From the NCBI GenBank assembly GCA_913048145.1, contig CAJWVP010000002.1, positions 1 through 33,940 on the forward strand: 33,940 nt of DNA, given 5' to 3'. The DNA is from an uncultured Rhodospirillaceae bacterium. Its GTDB lineage: Bacteria; Pseudomonadota; Alphaproteobacteria; Rhodospirillales; Casp-alpha2. The notes beneath the pieces are model-generated. The model saw only the letters and a program-made list of their open reading frames with translations, was not told where the DNA came from and did not search any database. Shown piece after piece: positions 4,310 to 18,089 of the stretch. Both the position numbers and the translations under genes were made by a program. The stretch's first letter is position 1. Each line of letters opens with the position of its first letter.

Positions 4310-5494
4310 ATGTTCAAAAAGGTTTTACTTCTTGCATCCGCGGGATTGATGGTTATGGGATCCGCCGCGGCTGCTGAAAAAGTCAAAATTGGCTTTGTTA
4401 CTACCATCACTACGCCTGCCGGAGTAATTGGAAGAGATATGGTAGACGCAGTGAACCTAGCCATGGAAGATATTGGCGGGAAGATGGCTGGCCGTGATGT
4501 TGAGTTAATTATTGAAGATGACGGTTTTAAACCAGCTATAGGAAAACAGAAAACAGACAAATTAGTAAAGCAGGACAAGGTACAATTCGTAACTGGGTTT
4601 ATTTGGTCGCATGTCCTTCTTGCTTCCCAAAAATCCGCTCTAGGGGCGGGAAAATTTCTAATTAGCTCAAATGCCGGACCTTCGCAAATGGCTGGAAAAC
4701 TATGCCATAAAAACTTTTTCTCTACCTCCTGGCAAAACGACCAAACGCCTATGGCAATGGGAGAAGTGCTTAATTTAAACAATGTTGGATCACTCTACGT
4801 TATGGCGCCCAACTATGCCGCCGGGAAAAATATGGTTGCTGGAGTAACCAGAACGTTTAAGGGAAAGATAGTTGGAAAGGACCTTACAAAGTGGGGTAAG
4901 GATGCTCAGCTTGATTTTTCAGCTGAGTTAGCGAAAGCAAAAGCGTCTGGGGCTGAAGGTATTTTCGTTTTTTATCCTGGTAAAGCAGGTGGCGCATTCA
5001 TCAAGCAATATGCACAAGCTGGCCTCCAGGGAAAGATACCGCTGTACTCAGTCTTCACAGTTGATTCCATAGCCTTACCCAAACTCCAAAAAGCAAAAAT
5101 GAGCGGGGTAATGGGATCAGTAATGACGCAATTTTGGGCGCCCGATTTAGATACCCCACAAAATAAAAAGTTTGTTTCAGGCTTTAAGAAGAAGTACGGC
5201 CGGTATCCATCTTTCTATGCAGCGCAGTCCTACGATACAATATTTCTAATAAAAAGCGCTGTCGAATCGGTAAAAGGTGACCTATCGAATATGGATGGAA
5301 TGAGAGCAGCAATGAAAGCCGCTAATTTTCCATCCGTTCGTGGAAAATTCTCCTATGGGAATAACCATTTTCCGATACAAAACTTCTATTCGAGGAAAGT
5401 TGTAAAAGACTCGGAAGGAGTTTGGACTACGTCAGTGCAAGAGGTTGTTCTGAAAAATCATCAAGATACATATGCAAAGGACTGCTCAATGTAG
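4310..5494 (+). CDS. ABC transporter substrate-binding protein, branched-chain amino acid (LivJ/HAAT) type
   Basis: Signal peptide MFKKVLLLASAGLMVMGSAAAA, VKIGFVTTITTPAGVIGRDMVDAVNLAMEDIGG; SD GGGAGGAT upstream; followed by livHMGF-like genes. Confidence 0.9.
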   Translation: MFKKVLLLASAGLMVMGSAAAAEKVKIGFVTTITTPAGVIGRDMVDAVNLAMEDIGGKMAGRDVELIIEDDGFKPAIGKQKTDKLVKQDKVQFVTGFIWSHVLLASQKSALGAGKFLISSNAGPSQMAGKLCHKNFFSTSWQNDQTPMAMGEVLNLNNVGSLYVMAPNYAAGKNMVAGVTRTFKGKIVGKDLTKWGKDAQLDFSAELAKAKASGAEGIFVFYPGKAGGAFIKQYAQAGLQGKIPLYSVFTVDSIALPKLQKAKMSGVMGSVMTQFWAPDLDTPQNKKFVSGFKKKYGRYPSFYAAQSYDTIFLIKSAVESVKGDLSNMDGMRAAMKAANFPSVRGKFSYGNNHFPIQNFYSRKVVKDSEGVWTTSVQEVVLKNHQDTYAKDCSM

Positions 5495-5517
5495 TCTATT
5501 GTTCTCTGCAGAATTTC

Positions 5518-5553
5518 AGATACGGCGGGATATATCTCCCGCCGTATCTTTTA
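5518..5553 (+). terminator. Terminator/attenuator-like hairpin between SBP and permease genes
   Basis: AGATACGGCGGGA (5518-5530), loop tatatc, TCCCGCCGTATCT (5537-5549): perfect 13-bp inverted repeat followed by TTT. Confidence 0.75.
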
Positions 5554-5589
5554 AAAGCTCCGAATTAGAACTTTTGTAAGGAGTTTAAT

Positions 5590-5616
5590 ATGAAAAGTAA
5601 ATTTGATAGGATGTAG
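5590..5616 (+). CDS. Possible leader mini-ORF MKSKFDRM*
   Basis: ATG at 5590 preceded by TAAGGAG; stop TAG 5614-5616, three nt before the livH-like ATG at 5620. Confidence 0.35.
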   Translation: MKSKFDRM

Positions 5617-5619
5617 GCT

Positions 5620-6543
5620 ATGGATTGGGTGTTAATAATCACTCAACTGCTAAATGGCCTTCAGCTTGGCCTTCTCTTGTTTTTGTTGGCCTCCGGTTTG
5701 ACACTTGTTTTTGGCATTATGGACTTTGTTAATTTAGCCCATGGTGCTCTTTATATGATAGGCGCCTACTTTTGCGCGAGCCTAAGTGAAGTCACCGGTT
5801 CTTTTCTCTTAGGCATAGCAATAGCTATTCCAGTGACAGCAGCAGCTGGTGCTATTCTTGAAGTTTCAATCATTCGACGCCTTTATTCCAAAGATCATCT
5901 TGATCACGTCCTGGCAACATTTGGGCTTATTTTGTGCTTTGATACGATGGTACATTTTTTTTGGGGACCAGAAGGAAAAGCGATAGAACTCCCGGCTTTT
6001 TTAGATGGACGGCTTGCTATTCTACCTGGTGTGGAATTTCCTACATTTCGCCTTTCTATAATATTGGCGGGGCTACTTATAGCTTTTGGTCTTTATTTTA
6101 TAATTTCTCATACAAAAACGGGGATGCTAATTCGAGCAGGCGCTTCAAACAGACAGATGGTATCTGCTCACGGTATCGATATTAAATCTCTTTTTACGAT
6201 AGTATTTGCTGTCGGAGCAGCTATGGCAGGTTTCGCTGGGATGATGATTTCACCAATAACTGAGGCTAGTATTGGAATGGGTAATGAGATAATCATCGTA
6301 GCGTTTGTGGTGATCATTATCGGCGGTATCGGTTCAATCAAAGGTGCGTTCTTAGCTGCCATTTTGGTAGGACTTATTGACACTATGGGTAGGTCATTTC
6401 TCGATACTTTATTAAAAATTATTGTATCGGAGGAAAGCGCTGAAACCGCTGCCCCAGCCCTATCCGCAATGGCAATATACATTCTAATGGCGACAATTCT
6501 TGCATTTAGACCGCAAGGGCTTTTCCCGCCAAAAGGGCGCTGA
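5620..6543 (+). CDS. livH: Branched-chain amino acid-type ABC transporter permease (LivH family)
   Basis: LLNGLQLGLLLFLLASGLTLVFGIMDFVNLAHGALYMIGAY; C-terminal FRPQGLFPPKGR. Confidence 0.93.
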   Translation: MDWVLIITQLLNGLQLGLLLFLLASGLTLVFGIMDFVNLAHGALYMIGAYFCASLSEVTGSFLLGIAIAIPVTAAAGAILEVSIIRRLYSKDHLDHVLATFGLILCFDTMVHFFWGPEGKAIELPAFLDGRLAILPGVEFPTFRLSIILAGLLIAFGLYFIISHTKTGMLIRAGASNRQMVSAHGIDIKSLFTIVFAVGAAMAGFAGMMISPITEASIGMGNEIIIVAFVVIIIGGIGSIKGAFLAAILVGLIDTMGRSFLDTLLKIIVSEESAETAAPALSAMAIYILMATILAFRPQGLFPPKGR

Positions 6544-6547
6544 TCGT

Positions 6548-7504
6548 ATGCGCAACCTTCTTACAAGAAAATCCTTCAATTTTGCCTTTATAATTTCAGT
6601 GGGTCTCCTTGCCCTACTTCCTTTATATGTCGAAATGACTGGGGATGATTTCTATTTAGATCTTGCCAATAGATTAATGATTTTAGCTATTGCTGCAGTG
6701 AGCCTTAATCTAATCCTTGGTCATGGAGGAATGATAAGCTTTGGTCATGCAGCGTACCTGGGTATAGGAGCTTATAGCGTCGGAATACCAGCCTACTATG
6801 AAATCTATGATGGTCTATTTCAAATAATTACAGCTGTTTTTGTTTCTGGGGTTTTTGCCCTTCTAACTGGTGCAGTTTCCCTGAGAACAAAGGGCGTTTA
6901 TTTCATCATGATAACCATGGCGTTCACACAAATGGCATTTTTTGGCATTGTAAGCATTGAAGAATACGGCGGCGACGACGGTTTAGTGATCGACACAAGA
7001 AGCACTTTTGGAAATTTTTTTGATCTCGAAGATACCGTTACTCTTTATTATTTTGTCTTTGTATCTCTTCTAATCTCACTTTTTATTGTTAAACGGATCA
7101 TGGAATCTCGTTTTGGGATGGTAATTTCTGGATCTAAGAGCAACGAGAGAAGAATGCAGTCGATCGGTTACAACACATATAGATATAAGCTTGTTTGTTA
7201 TGTACTGTCCGGTTGCCTGTGCGGTTATGCTGGGGCCTTGTTGGGAAATTTCACAAATTTTATCAGCCCAGAAATGATGGACTGGACAGCATCTGGCGAA
7301 CTAATTTTCATGGTTCTTTTGGGTGGATCTGGGGCACTTCTGGGACCTTTATGGGGGGCCGCAAGTTTTGTTCTTTTGGAAGAGTGGCTTTCCAGTATTA
7401 CAACTTACTGGCATTTTTTCTTTGGCGCTTTACTTATACTTGTTGTCCTTTTCGCGCGAGGTGGCATTGATGGTTTGCTCTCTAAAATAGGCTTATCTAA
7501 ATGA
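6548..7504 (+). CDS. livM: Branched-chain amino acid-type ABC transporter permease (LivM family)
   Basis: SLNLILGHGGMISFGHAAYLGIGAY; ATG at 6548 preferred over the upstream alternative start at 6500. Confidence 0.92.
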   Translation: MRNLLTRKSFNFAFIISVGLLALLPLYVEMTGDDFYLDLANRLMILAIAAVSLNLILGHGGMISFGHAAYLGIGAYSVGIPAYYEIYDGLFQIITAVFVSGVFALLTGAVSLRTKGVYFIMITMAFTQMAFFGIVSIEEYGGDDGLVIDTRSTFGNFFDLEDTVTLYYFVFVSLLISLFIVKRIMESRFGMVISGSKSNERRMQSIGYNTYRYKLVCYVLSGCLCGYAGALLGNFTNFISPEMMDWTASGELIFMVLLGGSGALLGPLWGAASFVLLEEWLSSITTYWHFFFGALLILVVLFARGGIDGLLSKIGLSK

Positions 7505-8262
7505 GACAGACTATCCTTAGCATTTCCAACCTATCCAAAACCTTTGGGGGCGTTGTCGCAACAGATGATTTAAGTTTAGACGTAGAGCAAGGAGAATTGC
7601 ACGCGATTATTGGTCCCAATGGAGCTGGAAAGACCACACTCATCGCTCAGCTTTCAGGAGAAATATTTCCTGATAATGGACGAATTTTATTTCAAAATAA
7701 AAACATTACAATGCTCCCACCATTTAAAAGGAGCCACTTAGGTATAGCTCGTTCATTTCAGATAACCAGCTTAATGCAGGGAATGGATGTAATCGATAAT
7801 GTTGCCCTTGCAACGCAGGCGAACGACGGACATGCCTATAAATTCTGGAAACCTGCACGTGATGACCGTGATCTACGACAATCGGCGATAGATGCCTTAA
7901 AGGAAGTCGGACTCGAGGGGCGAGAATTTGAAAAAGTACAAAACCTTTCTCATGGTGAGCACCGTCAATTAGAGATAGCGATGGCTTTAGCCACCCAACC
8001 ACATCTTTTATTATTAGACGAGCCGATGGCAGGTATGGGTACGGAGGAAGGAGACAAAATACTGAAAATCCTGCAAAAATTAAAGAAAAGAAAAACGATA
8101 CTGCTGATAGAGCATGACATGGATGTAGTGTTCGCACTTGCCGACCGTATAACCGTACTCGTTTACGGTCGGGCTATAGCAAGCGGTTCCCCTCAAAGCA
8201 TAAAGACAGATGAAAGAGTGCGAGAAGCCTATCTCGGCACGGAGGGAGACCTCAATTGTTAG
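7501..8262 (+). CDS. livG: ABC transporter ATP-binding protein (LivG family)
   Basis: Walker A GPNGAGKTT, signature LSHGEHRQLEIA, Walker B LLLLDEP; ATGA overlap with livM. Confidence 0.93.
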   Translation: MRQTILSISNLSKTFGGVVATDDLSLDVEQGELHAIIGPNGAGKTTLIAQLSGEIFPDNGRILFQNKNITMLPPFKRSHLGIARSFQITSLMQGMDVIDNVALATQANDGHAYKFWKPARDDRDLRQSAIDALKEVGLEGREFEKVQNLSHGEHRQLEIAMALATQPHLLLLDEPMAGMGTEEGDKILKILQKLKKRKTILLIEHDMDVVFALADRITVLVYGRAIASGSPQSIKTDERVREAYLGTEGDLNC

Positions 8263-8957
8263 CGGTCCGCGGTATTGAAAGCCATTACGGAGCAAGCCAA
8301 GCGTTATTTGGAGTTTCTCTAAGCGTTAAGAGCGGCGAAGTAGTTACGTTAATTGGGCGTAATGGTATGGGTAAAACTACCTCTATAAACTCAATTATGG
8401 GAATAACGAAAATTACTAGAGGTGAAATTTTTCTCGAAAATCAGCCCATCAATGATCTCGAAAGTTTCGAAATAAACAGAATGGGAATTGCTTTGGTTCC
8501 CGAGGGCCGGCAAGTTTTCCCAAATTTAACTGTCCGAGAAAATCTTGTGGCCATTGCGGCAAACAGAAATAAACACGCAAATCCGTGGAACCTGGAAAAA
8601 ATACTCAATTTGTTTCCCCTATTATCCGCACGTATAGACAACATGGCAAATTTATTGTCCGGCGGAGAACAACAGATGTTAGCCATTGGTCGTTCACTTA
8701 TGACTAATCCAAAGATTCTACTGCTCGATGAAGCCACAGAAGGTTTAGCGCCATTAGTTCGAAGTGAGATCTGGAGATGCCTCAACCAATTGAAAGAGGA
8801 AGGGATTTCAATTTTAGTCGTAGATAAGAATGTAAACGACTTAGCTCGCATTGCAGACATGCATTATGTAATCGAAAAAGGACGCATAGTATGGGAAGGG
8901 ACTTCACCAGAGTTATTAGAACAGAAAGATTTCTTAGGAAATAAGCTGGGCGTCTAA
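8256..8957 (+). CDS. livF: ABC transporter ATP-binding protein (LivF family)
   Basis: Walker A GRNGMGKTT, LSGGEQQMLAIGRSL, ILLLDEATEGLAP; TTG start overlapping livG by 7 bp. Confidence 0.93.
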   Translation: MLAVRGIESHYGASQALFGVSLSVKSGEVVTLIGRNGMGKTTSINSIMGITKITRGEIFLENQPINDLESFEINRMGIALVPEGRQVFPNLTVRENLVAIAANRNKHANPWNLEKILNLFPLLSARIDNMANLLSGGEQQMLAIGRSLMTNPKILLLDEATEGLAPLVRSEIWRCLNQLKEEGISILVVDKNVNDLARIADMHYVIEKGRIVWEGTSPELLEQKDFLGNKLGV

Positions 8958-9097: not shown

Positions 9098-10264
9098 GTG
9101 AACATGGAGCTCTCTGAAACTCAATGTCAAATCAAGGAAAGCGTTGCCAAGCTTCTGGAGCAGTTTGATGATCAGTATTGGCTGGAGCGCGATTCATCTG
9201 GCGAATTTCCGGAAGAATTTTGCCGTGCCATTGCTGACAATGGCTGGATGGGCATCGCCATGCCAGAGGAATACGGCGGCAGCGGCCTCGGTATTACCGA
9301 AGCCGCCATCTTGGCCCAAACGATAACCGAGTCAGGGGCTGGAAATGCCGGCTTTGCGGCTATTGTCATAGGTATCTTTGGGCTCCATCCGGTGGTTGTT
9401 TTCGGCACCGAGGAACAGAAGCGCGAATGGCTGCCACCAATCATTAAGCGTCAGGATGTTGCGTGTTTTGCTGTTACCGAACCGAACACGGGCCTCGACA
9501 CGACACGTCTGAAAACACGAGCCAAGTGGGATGGTGAGAAGTATATCGTCAACGGGGAGAAAATCTGGACCTCGACGGCCCAGGTCTCGAACAAGATGCT
9601 GTTGATCGCTCGGACCAAGGACATCTCCGAGACGAAGAAGCCGATCGACGGTCTGTCGCTGTTCTATACAGATCTGAATCGCGATTACTGCGACATCCGC
9701 GTCATCGACAAAATGGGGCGGAAGTGCGTTGACTCGAACGAGCTCTTTATCGACGGCCTGCCGATCCCAAAGGAGCACCTGATCGGAGAGGAAGGGAAGG
9801 GCTTTCGCTACTTGCTGCACGGACTTAACGCGGAACGTATTCTGATCGCTGCATCCATGGTCGGTCTAGGCCGTTGCGCGCTTCGGAAGGCTGCCAAATA
9901 CGCCAAGGAGCGCATCGTCTTTGACCGACCCATTGGCATGAATCAGGCGATCCAGCACCCTTTGGCGATTTCTTGGGCGGAACTGGAGGCCGCTCACATG
10001 ATGGCTTTCAATGCCGCTACTAAATACGACAACGGCGAAGATTGCGGGCTTGAGGCTAACGCGGCTAAATACCTGGGCGCGGAAGCCACCTTTAAGGCCT
10101 GCACCAACGCTGTAATGACCCACGGCGGCATGGGATACGCAAAAGAATACCATGTCGAGAGGTATCTACGCGAAAGCTTAATTCACCGGCTTGCACCGGT
10201 CAGCCCTCAATTAATCCTGAGTTACCTGGCCGAGAAGGCCCTAGGCCTACCGAGGAGTTATTGA
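9098..10264 (+). CDS. Acyl-CoA dehydrogenase family protein
   Basis: CFAVTEPNTGLDTTRLKTRA, GEKIWTSTAQ, GGMGYAKEYHVERYLRES; GTG 9098 (or ATG 9104) with upstream TGAGGAGA. Confidence 0.92.
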   Translation: MNMELSETQCQIKESVAKLLEQFDDQYWLERDSSGEFPEEFCRAIADNGWMGIAMPEEYGGSGLGITEAAILAQTITESGAGNAGFAAIVIGIFGLHPVVVFGTEEQKREWLPPIIKRQDVACFAVTEPNTGLDTTRLKTRAKWDGEKYIVNGEKIWTSTAQVSNKMLLIARTKDISETKKPIDGLSLFYTDLNRDYCDIRVIDKMGRKCVDSNELFIDGLPIPKEHLIGEEGKGFRYLLHGLNAERILIAASMVGLGRCALRKAAKYAKERIVFDRPIGMNQAIQHPLAISWAELEAAHMMAFNAATKYDNGEDCGLEANAAKYLGAEATFKACTNAVMTHGGMGYAKEYHVERYLRESLIHRLAPVSPQLILSYLAEKALGLPRSY

Positions 10265-10295: not shown

Positions 10296-11465
10296 ATGGC
10301 GCGACCAACCAAGGCCTACATCGCGGGGGTGTACGAGCATCCGACGCGCAAGGCCGTTGACAAGACGATCCCGCAGTTGCACGCGGAATTGGCTGCCGGC
10401 GCGCTGGCCGATGCGGGCCTGACCAAGGACGATGTCGATGGCTTCTTCTGCGACGGCACCGGACCCGGCCTGGGTGGCATTTCCATGGCCGAATATATCG
10501 GCTTGGACCTGAAGTATACGGACTGTACGGAGACAGGCGGGTCCAGTTACATCGTACACGTTGGCCATGCGGCTCAGGCTATTGCGGACGGGAAGTGCAG
10601 CGTGGCGCTTATCTCGCTTGCTGGACGACCGCGCGCCGAAGGTTTGAAGACCTTGGGGGCGCGTACATATGGTGGACCGCCCGAGGCGGGCTTTGAGATG
10701 TCCTATGGCCCGGCGGTAGTAAACACCTACGCCATGGTTGCCATGCGCCACATGCACGAGTTCGGCACCACGTCCGAGCAACTGGCCTGGATTAAGGTCG
10801 CAGCATCTCATCACGCGCAACATAACGAGCACGCCGTGCTCCGTGCTGTGGTCACGGTGGAAGACGTGGTCAATTCACCGATGATTGCCGATCCCCTGCA
10901 CCGGCTCGACTGCTGTGTGATCAGCGACGGCGGTGGCGCCCTCGTCATGGTCAGCCCGGAAATCGCCAAATCCCTGGGTAATCGTTCCGTCAAGGTGTTA
11001 GGCCAAGGGGAAGCGATCAAACACCTGAATGCAGGCCAAGTGGACCTCACCTATACGGCCGGTGTGACGTCGGGGCGCATCGCCTTCGAGGAAGCGAACC
11101 TGACGCCCGCTGATATGGACTACGCTTCGATCTACGACAGTTTCACCATCACGGTCTTGATTACTTTGGAGGATCTTGGTTTCTGTGAGAGAGGCGAGGG
11201 TGGCAAGTTTGTTTCCGACGGTAACTTGATTTCGGGGATCGGAAAACTTCCATTCAATACGGACGGTGGCGGCCTTTGCAACAATCATCCGAGCAACCGA
11301 GGCTCGATGACCAAGGTGATTGAGGCCGTGCGCCAATTGCGCGGTGAGGCCCACCCAGCGGTTCAGGTGCCGGACTGCACGTTGGCGCTCGCACACGGCA
11401 CCGGTGGTCAGATCGGTACTCGCAGTGGCAGTGCCACTGTCATCTTGGGGAGGAACGACGCATGA
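10296..11465 (+). CDS. SCP2-thiolase-like protein (thiolase superfamily; possible retro-aldolase)
   Basis: ADGKCSVALISLAGRP, IYDSFTITVLITLEDLGF, GGGLCNNHPSNRGSMTKVIEAVRQLRG, ALAHGTGGQIG; adjacent DUF35 gene. Confidence 0.85.
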   Translation: MARPTKAYIAGVYEHPTRKAVDKTIPQLHAELAAGALADAGLTKDDVDGFFCDGTGPGLGGISMAEYIGLDLKYTDCTETGGSSYIVHVGHAAQAIADGKCSVALISLAGRPRAEGLKTLGARTYGGPPEAGFEMSYGPAVVNTYAMVAMRHMHEFGTTSEQLAWIKVAASHHAQHNEHAVLRAVVTVEDVVNSPMIADPLHRLDCCVISDGGGALVMVSPEIAKSLGNRSVKVLGQGEAIKHLNAGQVDLTYTAGVTSGRIAFEEANLTPADMDYASIYDSFTITVLITLEDLGFCERGEGGKFVSDGNLISGIGKLPFNTDGGGLCNNHPSNRGSMTKVIEAVRQLRGEAHPAVQVPDCTLALAHGTGGQIGTRSGSATVILGRNDA

Positions 11466-11854
11466 GCCAGATGGAGCGGACTTACTCCGATCCCGATATC
11501 AACATGGAAACGGCGGTCTACTGGGAGAGCGCTAAGAACGGAAAGCTCTTGGTCAAGACCTGTAAGGCGTGTGGCAAGCTCCATTATTATCCCCGCACGA
11601 TTTGCCCGCATTGCCTGAGTAGCGATACGGACTGGGTCGAGGCCAGCGGGAAGGGTACCATCTACACCTATTCGGTGATGCGCCGCACAGAGACGCCCTA
11701 CGTCATCGCCTATGTGACACTGGAAGAGGGCGTCACGATGCTGTCGAACATCGTAGAATGCGATGTTGATGGCGTCGCCGTGGGGCAGACCGTGGAAGTG
11801 GTGTTTCGCGACACGGAGGGCGGTCATTCGCTTCCGGTTTTCCGGCCGGCTTGA
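11462..11854 (+). CDS. Zn-ribbon/OB-fold (DUF35) acyl-CoA-binding partner protein
   Basis: CKACGKLHYYPRTICPHC rubredoxin-like zinc ribbon, GTIYTYSVMRR, IAYVTLEEGVTMLSNI; ATGA overlap with preceding gene. Confidence 0.9.
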   Translation: MSQMERTYSDPDINMETAVYWESAKNGKLLVKTCKACGKLHYYPRTICPHCLSSDTDWVEASGKGTIYTYSVMRRTETPYVIAYVTLEEGVTMLSNIVECDVDGVAVGQTVEVVFRDTEGGHSLPVFRPA

Positions 11855-11882: not shown

Positions 11883-13088
11883 ATGGGACGGCCCTTGGAT
11901 GGCGTGAAAGTCGTCGATTTCTCGAATATGCTGATGGCGCCCTACGCGACGCAGATCTTGGGAGATCAGGGTGCCGACGTAATAAAGGTTGAGGCGCCGG
12001 GGGGCGATCCAGTACGCAATATCGGGCCGGCCCGCAACCCAGGCATGGGCGCGATCTTCTTAAACTGTAACCGCTCGAAGCGGAGCATCGTTCTGGACGT
12101 GAAGAAACCGGGAGGGCTTGCGGCGATGCATCGGATGATCGCTGACGCCGATGTGCTGCTTTACAATCGCCGGCCGCAATCCATGCAACGCCTAGGCCTC
12201 GCCTATAAAGACGTTGCTGAGGTCAATCCGCGTATCATCTATGTGGGCCTCTACGGTTACAAGGAAGAGGGGCCCTATGCCGGCCAGCCGGCATTCGACG
12301 ACCTAACCCAGGGTGCTGTCGGTATTCCCTGGTTGGCGCACATGGTAGATGGGCGCGAGCCTGCCTATTGCCCCACCGCCATCGCCGATCGGGGTGTCGC
12401 GCTTTGGGCCGTGGGAGAGATCAACGCCGCGCTCGTGCATCAAGTCCGCACGGGCCGAGGTCAACGCATCGACATCCCCATGTTCGAGATGCTGACCAGT
12501 TTTGTTCTTGGTGATCATTTAGGCGGCGAGACCTTCGATCCGCCGTTGGGTCCGGCTGGATACAAACGTATGTTGAACCCGAACCGCAAGCCCTACCCGA
12601 CTAAGGACGGCTATGTCTGCGTTATGGTGTACACGGACCGGCACTGGCAATCCTTTGCCGTGGCTCTGGGTGAGGATTGTCATTTCCGGGACGATCCACG
12701 CTACGCAAATATGGAGGCGCGCTCGGCTAATATCACCGAAATCTACACCGAGCTGGCGGCGCTGTTGTTGACGCGCACCACGACGTGGTGGATGGACCTT
12801 TTTAATGGCGCGGACATTCCGGCCATGCCTTTGCACACGCTGGAGACCTTGATTGAGGACCCGCAATTGGCCGCGACCGGGTTCTTTGGCGAAATCGATC
12901 ATCCAAGCGAGGGCAAGCTGCGATCTATCGGCGTGCCCAGTTCTTGGACGGAAACCCAACCGGCGCCCTCGCGTCATGCGCCGCGGCTCGGCGAACACAG
13001 TGCCGAGGTCCTTGGGGAATACGGCTATGGTGACGACGAGATCGCGGCCTTAATGGCGGACGGTGTCACGCAGGCACCCGCAAATTGA
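11883..13088 (+). CDS. CaiB/BaiF family (class III) CoA-transferase
   Basis: LDGVKVVDFSNMLMAPYATQILGDQGADVIKVEAPGGD; NRSKRSIVLDVKKPGG; TAIADRGVAL. Confidence 0.93.
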   Translation: MGRPLDGVKVVDFSNMLMAPYATQILGDQGADVIKVEAPGGDPVRNIGPARNPGMGAIFLNCNRSKRSIVLDVKKPGGLAAMHRMIADADVLLYNRRPQSMQRLGLAYKDVAEVNPRIIYVGLYGYKEEGPYAGQPAFDDLTQGAVGIPWLAHMVDGREPAYCPTAIADRGVALWAVGEINAALVHQVRTGRGQRIDIPMFEMLTSFVLGDHLGGETFDPPLGPAGYKRMLNPNRKPYPTKDGYVCVMVYTDRHWQSFAVALGEDCHFRDDPRYANMEARSANITEIYTELAALLLTRTTTWWMDLFNGADIPAMPLHTLETLIEDPQLAATGFFGEIDHPSEGKLRSIGVPSSWTETQPAPSRHAPRLGEHSAEVLGEYGYGDDEIAALMADGVTQAPAN

Positions 13089-13110: not shown

Positions 13111-13569
13111 ATGTCAGGTCTGTATTATGAGGAATTTGAGATTGGCATGGAGTTCAAACATGCCCTGACCCGCACGGTCACGGAGATGGACAACATTATG
13201 TTCTGCGCCATGACCCACAATCCCCAGCCATTACACCTGGATGAAGAGTACTCGAGAAATACTTTCTATGGACAACGTCTGGTTAATTCCCTGTTCACGC
13301 TGGGTTTGGTCATCGGCGTGACAGTTGCCGACACGACGTTGGGCACGACGCTTGGTAACCTCGGAATGACTGACGTGCGCTTCAAGAACCCCGTGTTCCA
13401 CGGCGACACGATCCACGTCATGACTCGCATCAAGGATATGCGCGAGAGTGCGTCTAGGCCAACCACAGGAATCATCACCTTCGAGCACTTCGGCTTTAAT
13501 CAGCGGGATGAGGAAGTCACGTATTGCGTACGGACCGGCCTCATGAAGAAAAAGGAGCACGACGCATGA
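13111..13569 (+). CDS. MaoC family (hot-dog) enoyl-CoA hydratase
   Basis: FCAMTHNPQPLHLDEEYSRNTFYGQRLVNSLFTLGLVIG; start at 13111 after AGAGGAAAC. Confidence 0.9.
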   Translation: MSGLYYEEFEIGMEFKHALTRTVTEMDNIMFCAMTHNPQPLHLDEEYSRNTFYGQRLVNSLFTLGLVIGVTVADTTLGTTLGNLGMTDVRFKNPVFHGDTIHVMTRIKDMRESASRPTTGIITFEHFGFNQRDEEVTYCVRTGLMKKKEHDA

Positions 13570-14459
13570 TCATTCGCTCCTGGCTTTTCGTCCCGGGCGA
13601 CAGCGAACGTAAGCTGGCGAAGGGGCGTGGTAACTCGGCTGACGCGCTTATTCTCGATCTGGAGGACGCCGTTTCCGATGACCGCCAGGACCAGGCTCGG
13701 GCGATGACCTGTGCCTTTCTCAAGGACAACCCCGATCGCTCACGGCAAAAGCTATGGGTTCGAGTTAACCCCTTGGACCATGGTTTTTCCCTGCCCGACC
13801 TGGCGGCGGTCATGCGCGGCGCGCCAGATGGGATCGTGTTGCCAAAGGTGTATTCGGCAGCTGAGGTGAATCGCATGGCTGATTTCCTGCTTGCCCTAGA
13901 AGCTCGCGAGGGTTTGGGCCTGGGGTCGACTAAAATCCTCAGCGTTGCGACTGAAACGGCGGCTTCATTGCTGACCTTTCACACGTATTTGGACAATGTC
14001 ACCAATCGTCTGACGGCGCTCACATGGGGCGGCGAAGACCTGGCTGCGGCCTTGGGCGCCAGCGACAATCAGCATCCAACGTCTGGCGACTACGACGATC
14101 CGTATCTTTATGCTAAGTCCATGTGCTTGGCGACCGCCCGGGCCATTGACGCGCAGCCCGTGGGCTGTGTGTGGGTCAATTTTCGGGACCTGGAAGGTCT
14201 TAAAAATGACTGCCTGCGCGACCGGCGCACCGGATTCATTGGTAAGATCGCCATCCATCCCGACCAGTCTGATATTATCAACCGGGCATTTACCCCTTCG
14301 GAAGATGAAATCGCCTATTCCCAAAAGGTCATCGACCTGTTTGAACAGAACCCGGGAATGGGAACGGTCGGCCTGGACGGCAAGATGCTGGACATGCCGC
14401 ACCTGAAGCAGGCACGCAATGTACTGGCGCTCGCCAAACAAGTTAAGGAACGGGGATAA
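13566..14459 (+). CDS. HpcH/HpaI / CitE-like CoA ester lyase
   Basis: RSWLFVPGDSERKLAKGRGNSADALILDLEDAV, GKIAIHPDQ; ATGA overlap with maoC. Confidence 0.92.
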   Translation: MIIRSWLFVPGDSERKLAKGRGNSADALILDLEDAVSDDRQDQARAMTCAFLKDNPDRSRQKLWVRVNPLDHGFSLPDLAAVMRGAPDGIVLPKVYSAAEVNRMADFLLALEAREGLGLGSTKILSVATETAASLLTFHTYLDNVTNRLTALTWGGEDLAAALGASDNQHPTSGDYDDPYLYAKSMCLATARAIDAQPVGCVWVNFRDLEGLKNDCLRDRRTGFIGKIAIHPDQSDIINRAFTPSEDEIAYSQKVIDLFEQNPGMGTVGLDGKMLDMPHLKQARNVLALAKQVKERG

Positions 14460-14461
14460 GC

Positions 14462-15658
14462 ATGGTCGGAACACTAGAAGGCATCCGCGTCGTTGATCTG
14501 ACTACCGTCATCATGGGGCCGTGGGCGGCGCAGATGATGGGCGACATGGGTGCGGATGTGATTAAGGTCGAAACCCGTGGCGGCGACATCAGCCGTGGCA
14601 TGGGGCCGGGCCGTAACAAGGGCATGGCGGCTTGTTACCTGACGTCAAACCGTAACAAACGCTCGGTCGTGTTGGACCTGACCCAAGATGAGGGTTTGTC
14701 GGCGCTTCGCCGCTTGATCGATTCGGCGGATGTCTTCATGCACAACTTCCGGCCCAAAGTGATAAATAAGTTTAACCTCGGATACGAGACTTTTAAGGAC
14801 GCCAACCCTGAACTGGTGTATTGCGGCGCCTACGGCTTTCGCGCCGACGGGCCTTGGGCCAACAAGCCTGCCTACGACGATATCATTCAAACAGCCGCTG
14901 GCTACTGTGACATGCAGGAGCTGATTTCCGACCAGCCTCGTTACGTACCAAGCCTGATTGCCGATAAGACATCTTCCTATGCGGTGTTCTCGGCTATCCT
15001 CGCCGCACTCGTGTGTCGCGAACGTGGCGGCGGTGGGCAGGCGGTCGAGGTGCCCATGTTCGAGACCATGGTAGACTACGCCATGATTGAACACCTCTAC
15101 GGCGCAACCTTCGATCCCCCCATCGCGCAAATGGGCTATGAGCGGATTATGAACATCGAACGCCGGCCGTATCAGACCAGTGACGGCGGTTATTTGACGG
15201 TTCTCCCCTACACGGATAAGAACTGGATCGACTTCTTCAAACTGGCGGGCCGCGAGGAATTTCTCGACGACCCGGATTTCCAGACCTATTCGAACCGGCT
15301 CAACAATTCTAAGAAGGTCTACGCGACCCTCAACGAAATCGTTTCGACCCGAACATTAAACGATTGGATCGCGCAGTTGGACGCCGCCAACATCCCAGCG
15401 ATGATGGTAAAGACTAAGGAAGACTTGTTGGATGACGAACAGCTTAACGCCACCGGTTTCTGGCATAGCGTTGATCATCCGACGGAAGGTAAACTCCGGT
15501 TTACCGATCCACCATTCCGCTATTCGAAAACACCGTCGACGATACGTGACATGCCGCCGCTTCTCGGCGAACAAAGCCGCGAGATACTGGCAGAAGCCGG
15601 ATATTCGGCCGATGAGATCGACGATCTCATTGCCAAGAACGTGACCAAGGCATCGTAA
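14462..15658 (+). CDS. CaiB/BaiF family (class III) CoA-transferase, paralogue of 11883..13088
   Basis: LEGIRVVDLTTVIMGPWAAQMMGDMGADVIKVETRGGD; SNRNKRSVVLDLTQDEG; IADKTSSYAVFSAI. Confidence 0.93.
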   Translation: MVGTLEGIRVVDLTTVIMGPWAAQMMGDMGADVIKVETRGGDISRGMGPGRNKGMAACYLTSNRNKRSVVLDLTQDEGLSALRRLIDSADVFMHNFRPKVINKFNLGYETFKDANPELVYCGAYGFRADGPWANKPAYDDIIQTAAGYCDMQELISDQPRYVPSLIADKTSSYAVFSAILAALVCRERGGGGQAVEVPMFETMVDYAMIEHLYGATFDPPIAQMGYERIMNIERRPYQTSDGGYLTVLPYTDKNWIDFFKLAGREEFLDDPDFQTYSNRLNNSKKVYATLNEIVSTRTLNDWIAQLDAANIPAMMVKTKEDLLDDEQLNATGFWHSVDHPTEGKLRFTDPPFRYSKTPSTIRDMPPLLGEQSREILAEAGYSADEIDDLIAKNVTKAS

Positions 15659-15675: not shown

Positions 15676-16449
15676 ATGTCGAATCCTATGAGCCTTGAAG
15701 GCCACAACATTATCGTCACTGGCGCCGGCCAAGGTATTGGCGAGGCTGTAGCGCGTCTCTCCGCGGATCTGGGCGCCAGGGTGATCCTGGTTGACGTACA
15801 GGCGGAAAAGATAAACGCCCTGGCAGACGACCTTGGCGCTGATAAGGCGGAGGTCCATATCGGTTCCGTCGCTGATCCGGGTTTTGTTCAGGGCATGGTA
15901 GCTAACGCGGTCACTAAGAACGGCGCCATTCACGGCCTGGTTAACAACGCTGGCATAGTCCGCGCCGCGATGATCAACAAGATGCCTATCGATACCTGGC
16001 AGGAGGTTATTGACGTCAACCTGTCCGGCGTCTTCTACTGTCTGCAGGCGGTGGGCCGCCACATGTATCAGCGCCATGAGGACGGGGACACGAGTCCGGC
16101 GTCCATCGTTAACATCTCATCCGACGCTGGCAGGCGCGGCACTATCGGCCAGATCAATTACGGCGCTGCCAAGTCCGGCGTCATGGGTATCACCATGAGC
16201 GCGGCCCGTGAATGGGCGGCTAATCAGGTGCGTGTGAATTCTGTCTGCTTCGGTGTTGTCGAGACGGAGATGACCGAAACCATCCGTTCCGATAAGTTCC
16301 GCGACCGTATCTTGGCTCAGGTCCCCATGGGCCGGTTCTCCGACCCAGAGGAGGTCTGCCAGCCCGTATGCTTCTTGCTGTCGCAGGCGGCCAGCTATAT
16401 CACCGGTCAGCACGTGTCTGTAAACGGTGGCTACACCATCGGCGTCTAG
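15676..16449 (+). CDS. SDR family NAD(P)-dependent oxidoreductase (FabG-like)
   Basis: VTGAGQGIGEAVA, NNAGIV, SIVNISSDAGRRGTIGQINYGAAKSGV (S-Y-K), C-terminal SYITGQHVSVNGGYTIGV. Confidence 0.95.
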   Translation: MSNPMSLEGHNIIVTGAGQGIGEAVARLSADLGARVILVDVQAEKINALADDLGADKAEVHIGSVADPGFVQGMVANAVTKNGAIHGLVNNAGIVRAAMINKMPIDTWQEVIDVNLSGVFYCLQAVGRHMYQRHEDGDTSPASIVNISSDAGRRGTIGQINYGAAKSGVMGITMSAAREWAANQVRVNSVCFGVVETEMTETIRSDKFRDRILAQVPMGRFSDPEEVCQPVCFLLSQAASYITGQHVSVNGGYTIGV

Positions 16450-16527: not shown

Positions 16528-17163
16528 TCAAACGGTTGCCCGGCAGGCCTTCCAAGCGGCAATGACTTCGCGGCCGTCGCGGCTCACATCGGCGGCCGCC
16601 TTCCCGGGTTTGTAAAGCGACGTTCCCATGCCGAACCCCTGCGCGCCGGCGGCTACGTAGGCCGCCATGTTGTCTGCGCCAATGCCGCCTACGGGAAGCA
16701 CGGGTACGTCAGCTGGCAATACAGCGCGTATAGCCTTCAAAATGGCCGGCGTTAAACCTTCCGCCGGGAACAGCTTTAAGGCGTCGGCACCGGCGTCCAG
16801 GGCAGCGAAGGCCTCCGTCGGAGTAGCAATGCCGGGCAAGGACACCAAGCCCTGACGTTTGGTTGCGACGATGACGTCCATATTCGCATTAGGCGAAATT
16901 ATTATCTCCCCGCCCGCCTCAGCCACCTCTGCGACCGCGTTCTTTGTAAGCACCGTACCCGCGCCAATGACCGCACGGCCCTCGCAGGCCTCACGCAGAT
17001 GGGCGATTGAGACCAGCGGCTCTGGCGAATTCAACGGAACCTCGATCAAGGTGAAGCCCGCCGCGATCAGGGCCAAGCCGACGTCCACTGCCTCATCTGG
17101 CTGAATGCCGCGGAGGATCGCCACCAGAGGGCATTGGGCAAGGGCGTCGGCAAAAGTCGGCAT
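16528..17163 (-). CDS. dgoA: 2-dehydro-3-deoxy-6-phosphogalactonate aldolase
   Basis: CPLVAILRGIQPDEAVDVGLALIAAGFTLIEVPLNSPEP, ALKLFPAEGLTPAILKAIRAVLP; ATG at 17163; adjacent dgoK. Confidence 0.88.
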   Translation of the reverse strand: MPTFADALAQCPLVAILRGIQPDEAVDVGLALIAAGFTLIEVPLNSPEPLVSIAHLREACEGRAVIGAGTVLTKNAVAEVAEAGGEIIISPNANMDVIVATKRQGLVSLPGIATPTEAFAALDAGADALKLFPAEGLTPAILKAIRAVLPADVPVLPVGGIGADNMAAYVAAGAQGFGMGTSLYKPGKAAADVSRDGREVIAAWKACRATV

Positions 17164-17174
17164 CTCTATCTTCC

Positions 17175-18089
17175 TTATGATTTGCTGAAATGTTCGGCAG
17201 CGGCCCAAAGTCCGGCTAGCGCAGCCGCTTCGGCGTCACGCGTGACGGTGGAGATATTCGCCCAATTGAAAGCAAGGGCATAGGGTTCGGAGATCGCCCC
17301 AGTGGTAAGAACCTGGATGGTATCGGCGCCGCCATACAATGCCCTAGCGCCCATGATTTCCGCGCCAATCAGCTGCCCGGATAAGAACGAGGCTAGTCCC
17401 GGTTTCGACATTTCGTTCGAGATGCCTAGCGTCCGGGCCGAGAATAGGCGGTGCAAAAGGCCGCCGGCCTCCCGGGCCCGTTCTAGACCCTGGATGAAGG
17501 TGTCCGCGTCGAATGTATCTTCCGGCTCCATCAGTCGGCCCAGGATCGAATGATCCTTGAGGACGGCGAATACCTCGCCAGTCATGAAGGTTGCGAAATC
17601 GTCGATGCGGCCATCCCGCACGCGAATCCATTTCGAATGCGTCCCTGGTATGCAAAAAAGGCCTTCAGTCACGCCATTGGCGGTAATCACGCCGCCAATC
17701 TGGGTTTCCTCGCCGCGCATGATTTCTGGCGCGCCGTCCGCCGTGCGCGCGCGAACCCCGGGCATGATGCGGACCGTGCCGTCCCCAGGCACGGTGATCA
17801 TGGCGGCGATCAGGGCTTCCAGATCACAGGGGGCTTCCAGGTATGGCGCTTCTACCCAGCCTTGCTGTGCGCCGATCATCCCGGACATGAGTACGGCGAT
17901 ATCTGGGTGCTCCTGCCGCCAGGCACCGCAGGCTGCGTCCAACTCGCCCGTGAAGTCGCCATCCGTGACTGCCAGGATGCCCTTCGGCCTGGCGACCCGG
18001 TCTAAGGCCTGACCGCCTGATCCGAGCAGGGTCGCACGTAGGCTGGTGGTGCCCCAGTCGACGGCGATGCAGCGTGCGGTGTCGGTCAT
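17175..18089 (-). CDS. dgoK: 2-dehydro-3-deoxygalactonokinase
   Basis: IAVDWGTTSLRATLL, MSGMIGAQQGWVEAPYLEAP, IPGTHSKWIRV. Confidence 0.92.
   Translation of the reverse strand: MTDTARCIAVDWGTTSLRATLLGSGGQALDRVARPKGILAVTDGDFTGELDAACGAWRQEHPDIAVLMSGMIGAQQGWVEAPYLEAPCDLEALIAAMITVPGDGTVRIMPGVRARTADGAPEIMRGEETQIGGVITANGVTEGLFCIPGTHSKWIRVRDGRIDDFATFMTGEVFAVLKDHSILGRLMEPEDTFDADTFIQGLERAREAGGLLHRLFSARTLGISNEMSKPGLASFLSGQLIGAEIMGARALYGGADTIQVLTTGAISEPYALAFNWANISTVTRDAEAAALAGLWAAAEHFSKS

Follow-up and report, generated by a model that had tools for sequence, protein, structure and literature searches.

A widespread thiolase-like family without the nucleophilic cysteine, paired with DUF35 proteins, probably breaks carbon chains by a reverse-aldol reaction

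Results

The window analysed here, a stretch of DNA of 33,940 nucleotides, contains a gene for a thiolase-fold protein followed by a gene for a DUF35 protein (Table 1). The two genes share an ATGA in the open reading frame listing, and the reading frames, this overlap and all sequence strings quoted in the original prediction are present as claimed. The thiolase-fold protein scores 684 bits over residues 1-386 against NF006010 (PRK08142 thiolase domain-containing protein), above the curated cut-off of 462 bits, and contains a Pfam Thiolase_C_1 domain; its PDB matches are, in order, 4u4e, 9myr (Sal), 7yvy and 6ok1 (Ltp2). PRK08142 is found above cut-off in only 6 of 199 genomes of the order and is therefore an accessory gene. 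The family occurs in proteobacteria, actinobacteria and haloarchaea, where its genes are annotated as thiolases or acetyl-CoA acetyltransferases. A literature search for the annotated gene pair gave no matches, and no tested activity was found for any member of the PRK08142/4u4e clade.

Table 1. Features of the gene pair, the surrounding operon and the active-site codons in the window.
Feature	Position	Strand	Length	Basis or remark
Liv-type ABC importer, substrate-binding protein	4310-5494	+		ORFs and similarity
Liv-type ABC importer, permeases	5620-6543 and about 6548-7504	+		ORFs and similarity
Liv-type ABC importer, ATPases	7501-8262 and 8256-8957	+		ORFs and similarity; whole importer 4310..8957
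Acyl-CoA dehydrogenase	9098..10264	+	388 aa	Pfam; conserved upstream neighbour in operon
Thiolase-fold protein, Cys-less, proposed retro-aldolase subunit	10296..11465	+	389 aa	NCBIfam PRK08142
Cys77 codon (TDCTE), not conserved	10524..10526	+		Ser 55, Thr 20, Cys 5, Asn 1 of 81
Gly82 codon, thiolase nucleophile (Cys) column	10539..10541	+		Gly in 81/81
Tyr280 codon (YDSF), proposed catalytic base	11133..11135	+		Invariant 81/81
Ser282 codon, column of Sal Cys304 / Ltp2 His296	11139..11141	+		Invariant 81/81
His331 codon (GGGLCNNHP), proposed proton donor	11286..11288	+		Invariant 81/81
DUF35 partner (zinc ribbon + OB fold)	11462..11854	+	130 aa	Pfam zf-ChsH2 and OB_ChsH2_C
CaiB/BaiF CoA-transferase 1	11883..13088	+		Pfam CoA_transf_3
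MaoC-fold hydratase, mesaconyl/itaconyl-CoA hydratase type	13111..13569	+		Pfam MaoC_dehydratas and MC_hydratase
CitE-type lyase, citramalyl/malyl-CoA lyase type	13566..14459	+		Pfam HpcH_HpaI
CaiB/BaiF CoA-transferase 2	14462..15658	+		Pfam, PDB
FabG-like SDR dehydrogenase	15676..16449	+		Pfam, NCBIfam

The DUF35 protein carries the zinc pattern Cys34-x2-Cys37-x10-Cys48-x2-Cys51, and its best PDB match is the DUF35 of ChsH2 (6ok1_B). The same C-x2-C-x10-C-x2-C pattern has been described for TcChsH2(DUF35) (PMC12329534). A DUF35 gene lies within 1.3 kb in 78 of 80 family loci, making it a constant partner across the family.

Behind the importer, the operon runs from the acyl-CoA dehydrogenase through the pair, CaiB, MaoC, CitE and the second CaiB to the SDR. 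The first CoA-transferase best matches 9br6, a succinate-hydroxymethylglutarate CoA-transferase. The MaoC-fold hydratase reaches 118.7 bits to RipB/Ich, under the cut-off of 340, with 8hgn (beta-methylmalyl-CoA dehydratase) as best PDB match, and the CitE-type lyase reaches 156 bits to RipC, under the cut-off of 375, with as best match the mitochondrial citrate lyase subunit beta-like protein 5vxc, a citramalyl-CoA lyase. The best solved relatives of the MaoC, CitE and CaiB proteins act on dicarboxylyl-CoAs, with modest scores, so that the substrate of the operon can be guessed, but not more than guessed, to be a branched or dicarboxylic acid. In the acyl-CoA dehydrogenase, the YEG motif is missing where the catalytic Glu usually lies; a Glu is present in GLNAER, the position of the base in enzymes of the isovaleryl-CoA dehydrogenase type, which would point to a branched substrate. 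Facing the operon on the minus strand (16528-18089) are genes for a KDPG/KHG-type aldolase and a 2-keto-3-deoxygalactonokinase.

To place the active site, the window protein and its closest 80 relatives (81 sequences) were aligned with four PDB chains. The motifs of the window protein are TDCTETGGSSYIVHV (starting at residue 75), IYDSFT (279), GGGLCNNHPSNRG (324) and HGTGG (367), and the reference numbering agrees with the literature (Tyr294 and Tyr344 in Ltp2; Tyr302, Gln352 and Gly89 in Sal). The nucleophile column holds Cys in 7yvy (EAAC), BbsB (SAC), SCP2 (NNC), L003 (NYC) and archaeal thiolases, and Gly in Sal (Gly89), in Ltp2 and in every member of the family, so that the lack of a Cys at this position, the starting point of the original prediction, is confirmed. 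Cys77 of TDCTE, which that prediction had named as a Cys that might occupy the column, can be ruled out as nucleophile: it sits five residues upstream and is variable across the 81 sequences. Tyr280-Asp281-Ser282-Phe283 is unchanged in all of them; Tyr280 shares its column with Ltp2 Tyr294 and Sal Tyr302, where all thiolase references have His, and His331 shares its column with Ltp2 Tyr344, Sal Gln352 and the His of the thiolase GHP motif. As Gly82, YDSF and His331 are invariant in 81/81 sequences, the alignment identifies the absence of the Cys as a conserved family trait, neither chance nor sequencing error. The window protein is not alone in having lost the second thiolase Cys, which in SCP2-type thiolases belongs to HDCF; its own motif at that place is YDSF.

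How does this trait relate to the rest of the superfamily? Among 93 aligned proteins from whole genomes, plasmids and solved structures, Cys at the nucleophile column goes with HDxF in 25 of 26 cases and its absence with YDxF in 65 of 67; the pairs of nucleophile and YD/HD residue are (C,H) 25, (G,Y) 64, (T,Y) 1, (C,Q) 1 and (P,Q) 2. In a tree computed without the four trait columns, a branch with an SH-aLRT of 100% unites the window family, Ltp2, Sal, IpfD and 4u4e against the thiolases BbsB, SCP2 and archaeal AACT, and 51 of the 52 Cys-less rows lie on one side of it. The exception, L162, has Gly at the Cys column and forms a long branch of uncertain placement near the thiolases. A careful tree search agrees: in 88% of bootstrap trees a single state change accounts for the Cys loss. 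The window family shares a separate clade with the 4u4e group, and grouping of the window protein with Ltp2 was not seen in the tree. The AF2 model of the window protein (pLDDT 78.6, pTM 0.85) gives no usable geometry for the loop 324-333 that holds His331, where pLDDT is below 50. In a Foldseek search with this model, every thiolase falls below 4u4e, Sal and Ltp2 (Ltp2 at rank 3-4, TM 0.82), and PhlABC and the thiolase/HMG-CoA synthase complex are among the matches. The residue, tree and Foldseek lines are not fully independent, because Foldseek also draws on sequence; together they make the class call, closer to Ltp2-type aldolases than to a thiolase, well supported.

A possible proton donor is present at position 282 (Cys, Asp or His) or 331 (Tyr or His) in 65 of the 67 Cys-less sequences, and Gln at 331 is always accompanied by Cys or Asp at 282. 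An exchange of the donor between the two positions, in two independent events, is suggestive only, as the statistical test had just two independent pairs and proves nothing. The two exceptions, L162 and L163, combine Gly at the Cys column with YDAF and Gly at the His column, leaving no obvious donor at either position. Two other proteins (L149, L151) have Pro at the nucleophile column and QDAT replacing YDxF, and cluster near IpfD and Ltp2. A Cys-less subclade beside Sal (L147, L155, L157, L159, L160) has YDDY, with Asp where Sal carries its catalytic Cys, and Gln in the second position; we know of no function for it. The genome of the window itself encodes a second Cys-less relative (L002; contig C12, 11023-15165) with YDCF, His in the 331 column and 37-40% identity, adjoining genes that resemble DUF35 and MaoC; its third copy (L003/L093), in contrast, is a canonical Cys/HDCF thiolase.

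Neighbouring genes in relatives were scored with reference proteins as tblastn queries. About ten loci, in Magnetovibrio, Sneathiella, Shimia and other alphaproteobacterial genomes, keep all or most of the module that extends from the acyl-CoA dehydrogenase to the second CaiB, and the SDR may lie on either side of it. The cultured relative Sneathiella litorea (L009) has the same operon. The Liv-type importer precedes the same operon as a whole set in L005 and in part in L004. In the wider family, SDR, enoyl-CoA hydratase or MaoC, CoA ligases and carboxylate-type importers vary near the pair. The proposed link of the substrate to the adjacent transporter and CoA genes is thus supported for close relatives but is not general in the family. 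A haloarchaeal Natrinema plasmid has MaoC, CitE and CaiB genes near the pair; in Natrinema caseinilyticum (L087), two divergent plasmid copies of the pair are separated by 2 kb, and genes for MaoC, CoA ester lyase and CoA-transferases lie near them. On Cupriavidus necator pENH92 (L089), the pair adjoins the tricarballylate genes tcuAB. On Phaeobacter inhibens pP66_d (L085), the pair and a CoA ligase gene are divergent to two class III aminotransferase genes, with pobA, pcaGH and a tricarboxylate-type transporter nearby, and here the pair possibly serves the catabolism of an aromatic beta-amino acid.

Discussion

What reaction would such a pair catalyse? It is probably a DUF35-dependent thiolase-fold retro-aldolase in which Tyr280 would act as the base and His331 would be the likely acid. 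The thiolase-like subunit would bind a 3-hydroxyacyl-CoA in the usual CoA tunnel and Tyr280 would deprotonate the 3-hydroxyl group; the C2-C3 bond would then break and a ketone or aldehyde would leave. Protonation of the acyl-CoA enolate would most likely fall to His331, while the DUF35 subunit would complete the substrate pocket and steady the fold. In the operon, a CoA-transferase would activate the imported substrate ahead of this cleavage, the acyl-CoA dehydrogenase would introduce a double bond and the MaoC protein would add water to it, and the carboxyl-bearing fragment would go to the second CoA-transferase and the CitE-type lyase.

In Sal, Gly at the Cys position is said to exclude thiolysis, Tyr302 is the essential base and the C304S variant is inactive (PMC12329534). 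Since Ser cannot replace Cys304 in Sal, Ser282 is by analogy unlikely to do the job of that Cys, and the proton donor probably lies elsewhere; His331, in the column of Ltp2 Tyr344, would be the natural candidate. As His331 is the His of the thiolase GHP motif, its conservation alone is no proof of a new role, and instead of a new acid it may be an inherited residue.

The neighbourhoods also bear on the substrate. An SDR gene lies within 3 kb in 32 and within 8 kb in 47 of 70 family loci, and in many lineages it is immediately next to the pair or coupled to it, for instance in Rhodococcus (L086), Mycobacterium (L099) and Methylobacterium (L095); aldehyde dehydrogenase, represented by one query, is found within 8 kb in only 2 of the 70. 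This pattern counts against an aldolase, because an aldehyde-making aldolase should often have an aldehyde dehydrogenase nearby and because a 3-hydroxyacyl-CoA aldolase needs no SDR, and it fits a 3-ketoacyl-CoA substrate at least as well. The pair could then be a hydrolytic retro-Claisen enzyme: the SDR would make the 3-ketoacyl-CoA, the Cys-less site would hydrate the ketone, and Tyr280 would initiate the breaking of a C-C bond in the hydrate, so that a free acid and an acyl-CoA would form with no acyl-enzyme. At the Phaeobacter pP66_d locus, where pair and CoA ligase lie near pobA/pca genes, free hydroxybenzoate would be the natural product of such a reaction. We nonetheless judge it unlikely: no SDR was seen close to the pair in several loci, including L013-L015 and L020-L022, and to our knowledge no characterised thiolase-fold enzyme carries out this cleavage. 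With a ketone as product, or with an SDR that acts on another group, the aldolase reading would still stand.

A true thiolase with another nucleophilic Cys is more doubtful still. The obvious residue would be Cys328, three residues before His331 and invariant among the 81 relatives, and the ligase or CoA-transferase, dehydrogenase, hydratase, SDR and pair do resemble a full beta-oxidation set. However, 4u4e and most members of its clade have Ser in the Cys328 column, several thiolases have Ala or Ser there, and the His of the HD motif has changed to Tyr in step with the loss of the Cys. Least probable, in our view, is an acyl-condensing enzyme (synthetic aldol or Claisen, or PhlABC-like acyl transfer) or a non-cleaving CoA-binding protein. 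The fold does serve condensing and acyl-transfer enzymes with DUF35 partners, as the fold matches to PhlABC and the thiolase/HMG-CoA synthase complex illustrate, but PhlC-type enzymes score far lower in the PDB search and the operon, with its importer, two CoA-transferases, acyl-CoA dehydrogenase, hydratase and lyase, is catabolic.

Annotation as thiolase makes pathway reconstructions assume a beta-ketothiolase step, against which the conserved residues argue. Reverse-aldol cleavage by Cys-less thiolase-fold enzymes has so far been shown mainly for steroid-degrading enzymes; if the retro-aldolase reading is true, DUF35-dependent aldol cleavage would be a general catabolic tool and not one peculiar to steroids, and many carboxylic acid pathways would have to be annotated differently. 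More tentatively, it is a real possibility that the PRK08142/4u4e clade is a large cross-domain family in which the thiolase fold uses Tyr280/His331, a third catalytic pair, for C-C cleavage of non-steroid acyl-CoAs of the dicarboxylate type, and perhaps even for hydrolytic cleavage of 3-ketoacyl-CoAs without an acyl-enzyme. Sites with Tyr/His, Tyr/Tyr and Tyr/Cys would offer a clean set for how one fold swaps its general acid.

Comparison with known systems

BbsAB (7pxp), the benzoylsuccinyl-CoA thiolase, resembles the window pair in its thiolase fold and DUF35 partner, but BbsB keeps the nucleophilic Cys and HDAF, has 29% identity and falls on the thiolase side of the tree. A DUF35 partner alone therefore does not decide the class, as this true thiolase has one as well. 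The bbs operon also has a CaiB-type CoA-transferase, a dehydrogenase, a hydratase and an SDR, and the gene kinds recur here (CaiB pair, acyl-CoA dehydrogenase, hydratase, SDR, thiolase/DUF35), whereas the window operon has a MaoC-type hydratase, an added CitE lyase and a Cys-less thiolase. Of the features of SCP2-type and DUF35-partnered thiolases (BbsAB, archaeal AACT), the window protein keeps the GHP His, as His331 of NHP; it lacks the nucleophilic Cys (Gly82) and the HD[CA]F motif (YDSF). A simple bbs-type thiolase is ruled out by the missing Cys and the missing HD motif.

IpfD, of the IpfD-IpfE system for ibuprofen degradation (pIBU218), shares 30% identity, the absence of the Cys and a DUF35-type partner, but has YDAF, Tyr at the 331 column and a place beside Ltp2 in the tree, and IpfE is without the zinc cysteines. 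IpfD-IpfE is held to release propionyl-CoA from ibuprofen (PMC9195938). Sal (9myr), a proven aldolase acting on bile acids, has 34.5% identity, Gly at the Cys column and the Tyr of YDxF; it differs in clade, in YDCY with the essential Cys304, which is not found in the window protein, and in Gln352, and in Sal-Shy the DUF35 is fused to a hydratase, whereas the window DUF35 has its own gene.

Ltp2 (6ok1), a proven steroid aldolase, has 35% identity and likewise Gly at the Cys column and the Tyr of YDxF, and Ltp2-ChsH2(DUF35) has a separate DUF35 partner with the same zinc finger. In contrast, Ltp2 belongs to another clade and has YDHF and Tyr344; this second catalytic Tyr is absent from the window protein, which has His331 in that column. 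The original call, Ltp2-type rather than thiolase, is thus upheld against the thiolases by residue columns, tree and fold ranking, but the separate clade, His331 for Tyr344 and Ser282 for the His of YDHF make the Ltp2 label too narrow. A steroid substrate finds no support in the window operon, where no steroid indications were seen and the CoA genes, judged by their best PDB matches, point to carboxylates.

The closest solved relative is 4u4e, a putative thiolase of Sphaerobacter thermophilus from structural genomics, with 47% identity and in the same clade, for which a literature search found no reported function. It shares Gly at the Cys column, YDSF, GGGL...HP and HGTGG with the window protein, but is without Cys328. 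The active-site sets are Tyr/Ser-or-Ala/His in the window family and 4u4e, Tyr/His/Tyr in Ltp2, Tyr/Cys/Gln in Sal and Tyr/Ala/Tyr in IpfD. By these residues, the window protein is neither an Ltp2 nor a Sal, with its Tyr280/Ser282/His331 set in a clade of its own. In conclusion, this kind of enzyme has been known since Ltp2 and Sal, and the PRK08142/4u4e clade is an uncharacterised variant of it with its own active-site set.
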